Translations under genes and position numbers: made by a program | Assembly (NCBI GenBank): GCA_003218375.1 | Contig: QHNH01000008.1 | Coordinates: 1 to 64,000 of the forward strand | From: Verrucomicrobiota bacterium | GTDB lineage: Bacteria > Verrucomicrobiota > Verrucomicrobiia > Chthoniobacterales > UBA10450 | Length of the DNA: 64,000 nt | Direction of reading: 5' to 3' | In this document: piece by piece, positions 52,917 through 54,826 of the stretch | Position numbering within the stretch: position 1 is the first letter of the stretch | How the letters are laid out: each line of letters opens with the position of its first letter | Notes under the pieces: model-generated | Told to the model about the DNA's origin: nothing | Database searches by the model: none | The model's input: only the letters and a program-made list of their open reading frames with translations

Positions 52917-53351
52917 TCAGGGCGTGGGCGGCGACGGTTTGTCTTTCGGCGGCGGCGGCGGCAGGAACCCGTGGTGTAGCATCATTTTGCGATGCTCCGA
53001 ATCGAGTTTCTCGAGTTTCTTCTGCTGTTCCGGCGTCAGTAACGGAGCGACTTCTTTCTTCGAATCTTCCATGACGGTGCGCACGCGTTCCGCGGTTTCG
53101 ACGCGAATCGTCTCCAGCCTGGCGCTGGTCGCGTCTATGATGGGCGCGATCTTCTTTTCCTGCTCGGCCGTCAAATCGAGCGCATGCCGGAGATGTTCGC
53201 GCATCCTGTCAGGCATGTCGCCTGAGTGCGGCGGCCCGAGCATAACATGATGGCGAAGATGGTGAACGCCGAGGAAAACACCGGTGGCGCCACCGGCCAC
53301 GAAGACAAGCAGCAAGGCAAAAGCCAGTTTCCATTTCAACGCGCTGTTCAT
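52917..53351 (-). CDS. Membrane-anchored LTXXQ (Spy/CpxP/CnrX-like) protein
   Basis: 144 residues. N-terminal membrane anchor (WKLAFALLLVFVAGGATGVF), then a His-rich segment (HHLRHHVMLG), then a helical hairpin with two LTxxQ-type motifs (LTAEQEKKI and LTPEQQKKL) and a Pro-rich end (PPPPPKDKPSPP). The fold group includes the periplasmic chaperones Spy and CpxP and the metal sensors ZraP and CnrX. As third gene of a sigma/anti-sigma operon it is best placed as the sensor that signals to the anti-sigma factor, as CnrX does. That role is inference. Its start overlaps the anti-sigma stop (ATGA). Confidence 0.8.
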   Translation of the reverse strand: MNSALKWKLAFALLLVFVAGGATGVFLGVHHLRHHVMLGPPHSGDMPDRMREHLRHALDLTAEQEKKIAPIIDATSARLETIRVETAERVRTVMEDSKKEVAPLLTPEQQKKLEKLDSEHRKMMLHHGFLPPPPPKDKPSPPTP

Positions 53352-53653
53352 TGCGAAAATTCCGTCTGGATCGCCGAGTCGGCGATCGCGTATTCGTTTG
53401 TCGGCACGGTCACGAACGTTTTCTCGTCTCGGTACTGCCGATAAGCCGCAGTGCCGGCCAGGACGAGGACCGCGGAAGCTACAATCCCCGCGCGGCGCAC
53501 AAACGACAGAAGTTCGGCGACGTCCTTCGAGCCGTTGCCGGAACGCCAGGACGCGACGACCCGAGTATCGAAACCAAAAGGCACTTCCGGCGCCGACTCA
53601 TCAGGCGCATCGGCAGCCGAACGCAAGAGGCGATCCACATCAGTTGACTTCAT
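53348..53653 (-). CDS. Probable transmembrane anti-sigma factor
   Basis: 101 residues from the ATG at 53653, which overlaps the sigma gene stop; an extra 30-codon open stretch upstream belongs to the sigma gene's other frame. N-terminal soluble part (MKSTDVDRLLRSAADAPDES), one membrane helix (GIVASAVLVLAGTAAY at about 60-76) and a short periplasmic end. No CxxC zinc motif. Size, topology and the overlaps on both sides fit a small CnrY-type anti-sigma factor. The assignment is by context rather than sequence signature. Confidence 0.65.
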   Translation of the reverse strand: MKSTDVDRLLRSAADAPDESAPEVPFGFDTRVVASWRSGNGSKDVAELLSFVRRAGIVASAVLVLAGTAAYRQYRDEKTFVTVPTNEYAIADSAIQTEFSQ

Positions 53654-54234
53654 GAGTTCTCCCGGGCCCTCATGTTCGATAAGAGCTGTTTCATTTTCTG
53701 CCGCGCCCGAAAGGCGCGGACTTTGACGAGCGCGCCGCTCCACCCGGTGACACGCCGGATCTCCTCGACGGACTGTTGTTGCAGATAGAGCAGATCAATC
53801 ACGAGGCGGTCCGCGGGTTTCAGCGCGTTCATAAGATGCTCGACAAGCTGGCGCGACGCAAAGCTCTGGTCGGGCGCCAGGTCATCCGTGGTCGCGGCCA
53901 GGTTCCGGACGACGGCTGCCTGTTCTTCGCTGAGATCGGCTTCGCGCAATTCCGGTCGCGCTTTCTCGGCCTGGATCTGGTTGAGGCAGGTGTTGATCGC
54001 GATCCGTGACACCCAATGCTCGAGCGGCACCTTGCCGGAAAATTGGGGCAGCTTCTGCAAAATCTTGATGAAGATCATCTGGCAAAGATCCTCCTCGGCG
54101 CTGCGAACCGCACGATGCGCTCGCACGAGTTTGGCCACGAGCGGATAAAGACTCCGCACCAGCTCGCGGGCCGCGCTTTCGTCCTGCCGCAGCACCGTCG
54201 CCACCAACTCGCGTGAGACACTTTCGTCAGCCAT
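53650..54234 (-). CDS. ECF-type RNA polymerase sigma factor
   Basis: 194 residues. Region 2 at about 22-90 (LYPLVAKLVRAHRAVRSAEE-DLCQMIFIKILQKLPQFSGK then LEHWVSRIAINTCLNQ), short linker, region 4 at about 130-185 (ALKPADRLVIDLLYLQQQSV-EEIRRVTGWSGALVKVRAFR-ARQKMKQLL). No regions 1 or 3, so it is an ECF (group 4) sigma factor. Leads the operon with the anti-sigma, LTXXQ and cupin genes. Its upstream region carries a TGTAACC-N17-GTCAT motif also present before the divergent LTXXQ gene, suggesting autoregulation. Confidence 0.93.
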   Translation of the reverse strand: MADESVSRELVATVLRQDESAARELVRSLYPLVAKLVRAHRAVRSAEEDLCQMIFIKILQKLPQFSGKVPLEHWVSRIAINTCLNQIQAEKARPELREADLSEEQAAVVRNLAATTDDLAPDQSFASRQLVEHLMNALKPADRLVIDLLYLQQQSVEEIRRVTGWSGALVKVRAFRARQKMKQLLSNMRARENS

Positions 54235-54264
54235 GTAAAGCCAAACCAGTCCACACCATCGGCA

Positions 54265-54293
54265 ATGACAGCGGGAAGCGGGCGGCGGTTACA
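54265..54293 (-). promoter_or_regulatory. Predicted ECF promoter of the sigma operon
   Basis: On the minus strand TTTGTAACC (-35 at 54293-54287) and GTCAT (-10 at 54269-54265) are separated by exactly 17 bases, about 30 bases upstream of the sigma start. Identical elements and spacing lie on the plus strand at 54341-54369. Confidence 0.7.
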
Positions 54294-54340
54294 AAATAAT
54301 CTCGCAGCCGTCCGGGCCGGGAAGATTTTCGCGAACAATT

Positions 54341-54369
54341 TGTAACCCGACGGCGCTGTGACCAGTCAT
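54341..54369 (+). promoter_or_regulatory. Predicted ECF promoter of the divergent LTXXQ gene
   Basis: TGTAACC (54341-54347), 17-base spacer, GTCAT (54365-54369). The -35 word has the AAC core common in ECF promoters. Matches the divergent element base for base in both boxes, while the spacers differ. Confidence 0.7.
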
Positions 54370-54424
54370 CCATTCATGAAAAGGCGCTCTGATTGCGCCC
54401 AAAAACAAGAAACAAAACCAAACA

Positions 54425-54826
54425 ATGACGCGAAAAATTATCACACTCACGGCGGCGGCAGCGTTGTCGCTGGCCGGTCTCGTTTACCTCCAGGCCAAGG
54501 AACCGGGCGAGCACGGACCGAAACACGACGGCCCCGGCCCGCACCACATGATGATGGGGAATCCGCTCGAGCATTTGAGCAAGGACCTCAATCTCACCGA
54601 CGATCAGAAGACAAAGGTCCAGCCGATCATCGACCAGACCAAGCCGCAGATCGCCGCCATCCATAAGGAGGCGATGGAAAAAATGCACGCCCTGCTCGAA
54701 AGCGCCGGCGCGCAAATCCGGCCGCTCCTCACGCCGGAGCAGCAGCAAAAATTCGATGCGATGAAAAAGGCGCACGAAGACATGCGCAAGGCCGAGCAGG
54801 AAATGCACGACGCCCAGAAACTGTAA
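54425..54826 (+). CDS. Periplasmic LTXXQ (Spy-like) protein
   Basis: 133 residues. Signal peptide MTRKIITLTAAAALSLAGLV, then a His/Gly-rich stretch (GEHGPKHDGPGPHHMMMG, possible metal binding), then a helical hairpin with two LTxxQ motifs (LTDDQKTKV and LTPEQQQKF). Paralogue of the anchored protein in the divergent operon, but exported rather than anchored. With the shared promoter motif, it is the likely effector of the ECF module: a periplasmic chaperone or metal buffer. A good terminator follows. Confidence 0.85.
   Translation: MTRKIITLTAAAALSLAGLVYLQAKEPGEHGPKHDGPGPHHMMMGNPLEHLSKDLNLTDDQKTKVQPIIDQTKPQIAAIHKEAMEKMHALLESAGAQIRPLLTPEQQQKFDAMKKAHEDMRKAEQEMHDAQKL

Follow-up and report, generated by a model that had tools for sequence, protein, structure and literature searches.

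Twin outward-facing promoters, very probably read by the adjoining ECF sigma factor, between a sigma operon and a Spy-like chaperone gene in a Verrucomicrobiota bacterium

The DNA analyzed here, called the window, is a stretch of 64,000 nt from a Verrucomicrobiota bacterium (UBA10450; GCA_003218375.1, contig QHNH01000008.1, positions 1-64,000). Within it, an operon encoding an ECF sigma factor is separated from the divergent gene of a Spy-like protein by a gap of 190 bases, which harbors one match to TGTAACC-N17-GTCAT on each strand. The features of the locus are as follows:

52917..53351, minus strand: LTXXQ (Spy/CpxP-like) protein anchored in the membrane, probably a periplasmic sensor (25.3 bits with Pfam LTXXQ, cut-off 24.3)
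53348..53653, minus strand: 101-aa protein, probable membrane-anchored anti-sigma factor (position, ATGA overlap with the sigma stop, alignment, low-confidence model)
53650..54234, minus strand: 194-aa sigma factor of the ECF type (Sigma70_r2 and r4_2 of Pfam both exceed the cut-off; NCBIfam sigma70-ECF 70.3 bits, cut-off 42.9)
54265..54293, minus strand: predicted ECF promoter of the sigma operon (-35 TGTAACC 54293-54287, N17, -10 GTCAT 54269-54265; exact match, N17 in 12/12 orthologs)
54341..54369, plus strand: predicted ECF promoter of the Spy-like gene (-35 TGTAACC 54341-54347, N17, -10 GTCAT 54365-54369; exact match, N17 in 12/12 orthologs)
54383..54399, plus strand: short hairpin (GGCGC-N7-GCGCC; fold -9.6 kcal/mol, z -2.87) within what would be the 5' leader of the Spy-like transcript
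54425..54826, plus strand: secreted Spy-like periplasmic chaperone with a His-/Met-rich N-terminus (Pfam LTXXQ and Metal_resist above cut-off)

The sigma factor consists of regions 2 and 4 only and terminates soon past region 4. The 101-aa protein following it matched no family in Pfam or NCBIfam and no PDB chain at E 10. It is kept in ten orthologs, where the short tail is conserved, and a low-confidence model displays two short helices, a long helix expected to cross the membrane and a further short helix. Judged by its position and modeled shape, this protein is probably the anti-sigma factor, with a CnrY-like place and build. The start of the LTXXQ gene again overlaps the stop of the preceding gene (ATGA). 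For its product, a profile search matched Spy chains in the PDB and did not find CnrX, while Metal_resist stayed below the Pfam cut-off. The structure model is helical, and a structure search with it returned weak, scattered helical matches, with both CnrX and Spy absent from the list, an outcome that carries no weight in either direction. A role as periplasmic sensor is probable for this protein. The divergently encoded Spy-like protein matched the NCBIfam Spy model at 5.8e-11, which is under the equivalog cut-off, and is probably the main target of the sigma factor.

Within the leader of the Spy-like mRNA, a sequence similar to the hairpin is present in six close relatives (L004-L009) and absent from more distant ones. 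The leader of the sigma mRNA contains a conserved (A)GTGTGGA element between the -10 box and the start codon (window 54240-54257, minus strand), which is found in nearly all of the 13 loci compared below. The sigma operon is followed downstream by a cupin gene and MlaE/ABC/MlaD transporter genes.

Both sites face outwards, one toward the ATG of the sigma gene (54234) and the other toward the ATG of the LTXXQ gene (54425). An earlier note on this DNA had described exact boxes occurring once on each strand of the 190-base gap, and coordinates, gap and boxes were all confirmed. Also correct was its statement that the spacers, GCCGCCCGCTTCCCGCT and CGACGGCGCTGTGACCA, are without resemblance to each other. 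Its judgment that two such matches are improbable by chance agrees with shuffles of the window, which gave an expectation of 0.01 matches and in no case two. With spacers of 15-19 bases, no further TGTAACC-GTCAT match besides the twin sites was present in the window.

In the whole assembly of 3.96 Mb, the exact N17 form is represented by the twin sites only, and a reversed-pattern control gave zero exact matches. One extra exact match has an N18 spacer (C52:115199); since it lies within an open reading frame, it was rejected as a promoter and taken as chance. A one-mismatch match at C1:25860, also within an open reading frame, was set aside. The loose form GTAAC-N17-19-GTCA yielded 57 matches in the genome compared to 49 for the reversed control, which makes the full boxes the only informative form. 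A further one-mismatch site (GTCTT; G000:C52:129353-129381, L119) is intergenic, and 7 bases beyond it an open frame begins that would encode a hydrophobic protein of 232 aa; the site is a possible third target or a chance match.

For the family, 61 genomes were scanned with TGTAACY-N17-GTCAT, and 90 matches were obtained versus 3 for the reversed pattern. The matches examined mostly precede genes for the sigma factor, Spy-like proteins (second copies included), DUF1800 proteins and secreted proteins. The secreted ones comprise a protein of ~158 aa and a second one; a small His-rich protein resembling a lipoprotein is also encoded behind the motif, and a few of the examined matches have no convincing gene behind them. 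The scan is the check for which the earlier note had asked, and the motif passes it. The same note had proposed that the consensus would define the regulon. This holds in principle; the own genome, however, yields essentially the divergent pair, and further targets appear only in relatives. In some of the family's genera the motif is immediately followed by a DUF1800 gene (L134, L135, L140); the window genome yielded one DUF1800 gene, which lacks a full motif upstream. The ~158-aa secreted protein with the motif (L121, L123, L124, L128) occurs in exactly those four sampled congeners (G033, G019, G006, G050) that also carry an extra sigma paralog; the window genome gave no match to this protein.

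The presence of the motif follows that of the sigma gene. It was detected in 43 of the 51 genomes with a sigma ortholog versus 2 of the 10 without one (Fisher p 1.5e-4, ignoring kinship), leaving 8 genomes with the sigma gene only and 8 with neither. Both genomes with the motif only are less than 70% complete, and some of the 8 sigma-bearing genomes perhaps lack a match because the exact pattern is over-strict.

Some relatives carry additional sigma operons with this layout, whose sigma proteins are ~50% identical. One subfamily (L216, L219, L220, L222) possesses a divergent promoter pair of its own, with identical boxes and N16 at 8/8 sites, and another (L217, L218, L221) has one site, TGTAACC-N17-GTCT, ahead of the sigma gene and lacks the twin. 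The sites of the window could be promoters on which a different ECF sigma factor of the cell mainly acts, the neighboring one being just one of the regulated genes. Since the paralogs share the -35 box before their own operons, cross-reading is possible, and where they lie behind nearly the same boxes the pairing of sigma factor and site is ambiguous. Nevertheless, this explanation is unlikely. A second close paralog is not seen in the window genome (one match, E 1e-30), the first subfamily uses N16 and not N17, and the genomes without an ortholog that are at least 90% complete (G015, G022, G029, G058) are also without the motif. As the boxes are the same, spacer length may help to separate the N16 subfamily from the window type, a suggestion drawn from few loci. 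The N16/N17 split among paralogs offers a natural experiment on the separation of sigma factors that share boxes.

Recognition by the adjoining sigma factor gains further weight from the orthologs. A search of genome contigs delivered 12 Chthoniobacterales/Spartobacteria loci, 68-91% identical, which together with the window make up 13 loci. In 12/12 orthologs both sites are present at identical spacer length, while the bases of the spacers drift. GTAAC-N18-GTC (equal to TGTAACC-N17-GTC) occurs at both sites in 13/13 loci, with GTC in 26/26 sites. The invariant core is TGTAACY-N17-GTC, the single exception being CGTAACC (L013). The trailing AT of the -10 box is less strict, above all on the sigma side, where GTCGT, GTCTT, GTCCT, GTCTA and GTCTG are found (L004-L009); on the chaperone side GTCA is unchanged across the loci, whereas the sigma-side bases after GTC vary. 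The consensus is to be loosened from TGTAACC-N17-GTCAT to TGTAACY-N17-GTC(A)(T).

The gap between the two -35 boxes amounts to 47 bases in the genus of the window and to 20-150 in the family. Given this variable distance, the sites behave like two independent promoters rather than one paired operator. The inverted copies within one intergenic gap could instead be operators to which an unrelated DNA-binding regulator binds, or the halves of one cooperative site. We regard this as very improbable, because N17 within each copy is fixed while the distance between the copies is not, single copies also precede other genes, and the order, spacing and sequence of the boxes match ECF promoters (PMC8315932, PMC3426412). 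Chance repetition in G+C-rich DNA is refuted by the conservation in 13/13 loci, besides the shuffles and the excess over the reversed control in the family.

The promoter can be traced beyond the phylum. A set of 36 distant orthologs (28-37% identity) with the gene order sigma factor, anti-sigma factor, LTXXQ protein is nearly all acidobacterial; one of the genomes (L029) is labeled Bacillota, yet its locus is nearly identical to that of Terriglobia L032. GTAACC-N17-GTC precedes the sigma gene in 36/36 of these loci. In three of them (L015-L017) the start codon of the sigma gene lies downstream of the promoter, the arrangement also seen in the window. For the remaining 33 of the 36 (L018-L052 minus L019 and L048), the promoter straddles the start codon as GTAACC-N8-ATG-N6-GTC, and this ATG is in frame, with no in-frame stop up to the conserved domain. 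Here, codon 4 is GTC in 33/33 loci, compared to a GTC share of 24% among later valine codons, and codon 5, when proline, is CCA in 27/27, compared to 8% further on. This skew points to a constraint on the DNA at the first sigma codons beyond that on the peptide alone; a codon bias near gene starts could explain CCA, but hardly GTC.

A promoter lying across the ATG would mean that the sigma-driven transcript cannot encode the full-length sigma factor, whereas the downstream genes could still be expressed. As a hypothesis, the straddling site would drive the zinc-type anti-sigma factor and the Spy-like protein without full-length sigma factor. Alternatively, a shorter sigma factor may be made from a leaderless mRNA in 15 of the 33 loci, in which an in-frame ATG or GTG stands nine bases past GTC, at the expected start of transcription. 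In the Acidobacteriota loci, the second gene mostly encodes a protein of 160-170 aa with H-x3-C-x2-C as in zinc-type anti-sigma factors, which replaces (L018-L052) the small one-helix protein of Verrucomicrobia; one of these proteins, compared with Pfam, matched no family. In 12 Acidobacteriota-type genomes, TGTAACC-N16-CGTC gave 14 matches versus 21 for the control and is thus not enriched, which leaves these genomes without sign of a wider regulon. The combined proposal that the sigma factor of Acidobacteriota drives its own brake instead of itself, and that a sister subfamily in Verrucomicrobia is separated by a one-base change of the spacer, is tentative, and we would lean somewhat against it. 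The overlap with the start codon, if functional, would represent an unusual feedback design, which is directly testable.

The two-part promoter is nearly unchanged across two phyla and is therefore very probably the switch of the sigma factor for itself and its main target. With high confidence, the twin sites of the window can be considered divergent promoters that the adjoining sigma factor would recognize. The view that this ECF sigma factor drives its own operon, adopted earlier from the behavior of such factors in general, is now supported by the 12/12 orthologs, the enrichment in the family, the co-occurrence with the sigma gene and the boxes in Acidobacteriota. The sites, their position, spacing, conservation and enrichment as well as this co-occurrence are direct observations, around which the following circuit can be proposed. 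A signal in the envelope, presumably misfolded envelope proteins or metal, would be sensed by the LTXXQ protein and would free the sigma factor from the 101-aa anti-sigma factor. RNA polymerase carrying the sigma factor would then start leftwards, ~20-25 bases before the sigma ATG, raising sigma factor, anti-sigma factor and sensor together. A second start, rightwards and ~50 bases ahead of the Spy-like gene, would raise the periplasmic chaperone, by which the stress would be relieved.

This circuit is a new example of an ordinary kind of ECF circuit, in a lineage for which the literature searched gave no description. The search, with subscription papers mostly outside its reach, found no account of the arrangement of sigma factor and LTXXQ protein. 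For an envelope-stress sigma factor of largely uncultured soil Verrucomicrobia, a well-supported promoter consensus is now at hand, and the regulon thereby becomes readable. The persistence of the promoter across phyla, the N16/N17 split and the start-codon overlap raise the interest above that of an ordinary circuit.

Among known systems, the promoter of ECF16, described for BcrS of Brucella melitensis as (T/C)GTAAC-N17-CGAA (PMC8315932), is similar. The window sites share its -35 TGTAAC and have the identical distance to the four-base -10 box, and BcrS is an autoregulated sigma factor with an anti-sigma gene, as the sigma factor of the window probably is too. In contrast, the -10 box is CGAA there and xGTC(A)(T) in the window type, and the neighbors are bcrS-abcS and bcrXQP in the one case and genes for the sigma factor, the one-helix protein and the LTXXQ protein in the other. 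Membership in ECF16 was rejected on the -10 box, as GTC and not CGAA stands at 26/26 sites of the 13 loci. ECF41 recognizes TGTCACA-n16-CGTC, and ECF promoters in general combine an AAC-type -35 with a CGT -10 box (PMC3426412). The window type shares with ECF41 the GTC of the -10 box and very few, neighboring sigma targets; it differs in the -35 TGTAACC, in the 194-aa sigma factor without C-terminal extension and in the apparent anti-sigma gene. Since the large extension and TGTCACA are both absent, membership in ECF41 was likewise rejected. Of the general traits of autoregulated ECF sigma factors, two are found, namely regions 2 and 4 only and an AAC-type -35 with a GTC-type -10 box before the own operon. 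A co-transcribed anti-sigma factor is probable from the position, ATGA overlap and shape of the 101-aa protein, which matched no family, and dependence of both transcripts on the sigma factor is predicted.

In layout, the circuit appears to resemble CnrYXH of Cupriavidus metallidurans, which comprises the ECF sigma factor CnrH, the small anti-sigma factor CnrY and the membrane-anchored periplasmic sensor CnrX. A CnrH-CnrY structure is cited in PMC8103513. Common to both are an ECF sigma factor, a protein of ~100 aa with one (in the window, predicted) membrane helix and a membrane-anchored protein of the LTXXQ/metal-resistance group. Differences exist in the gene order, which in the window is sigma factor, anti-sigma factor, sensor, and in the 101-aa protein, which has no detectable sequence match to CnrY. 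Furthermore, the locus adjoins no metal efflux operon, its probable divergent target is a Spy-like chaperone, and its sigma factor is nearer to RpoE than to CnrH in sequence. In enterobacteria, envelope stress induces Spy and CpxP via two-component systems. There, a Spy-like chaperone is likewise provided on demand, and in the window an ECF sigma factor would take the place of the two-component system.
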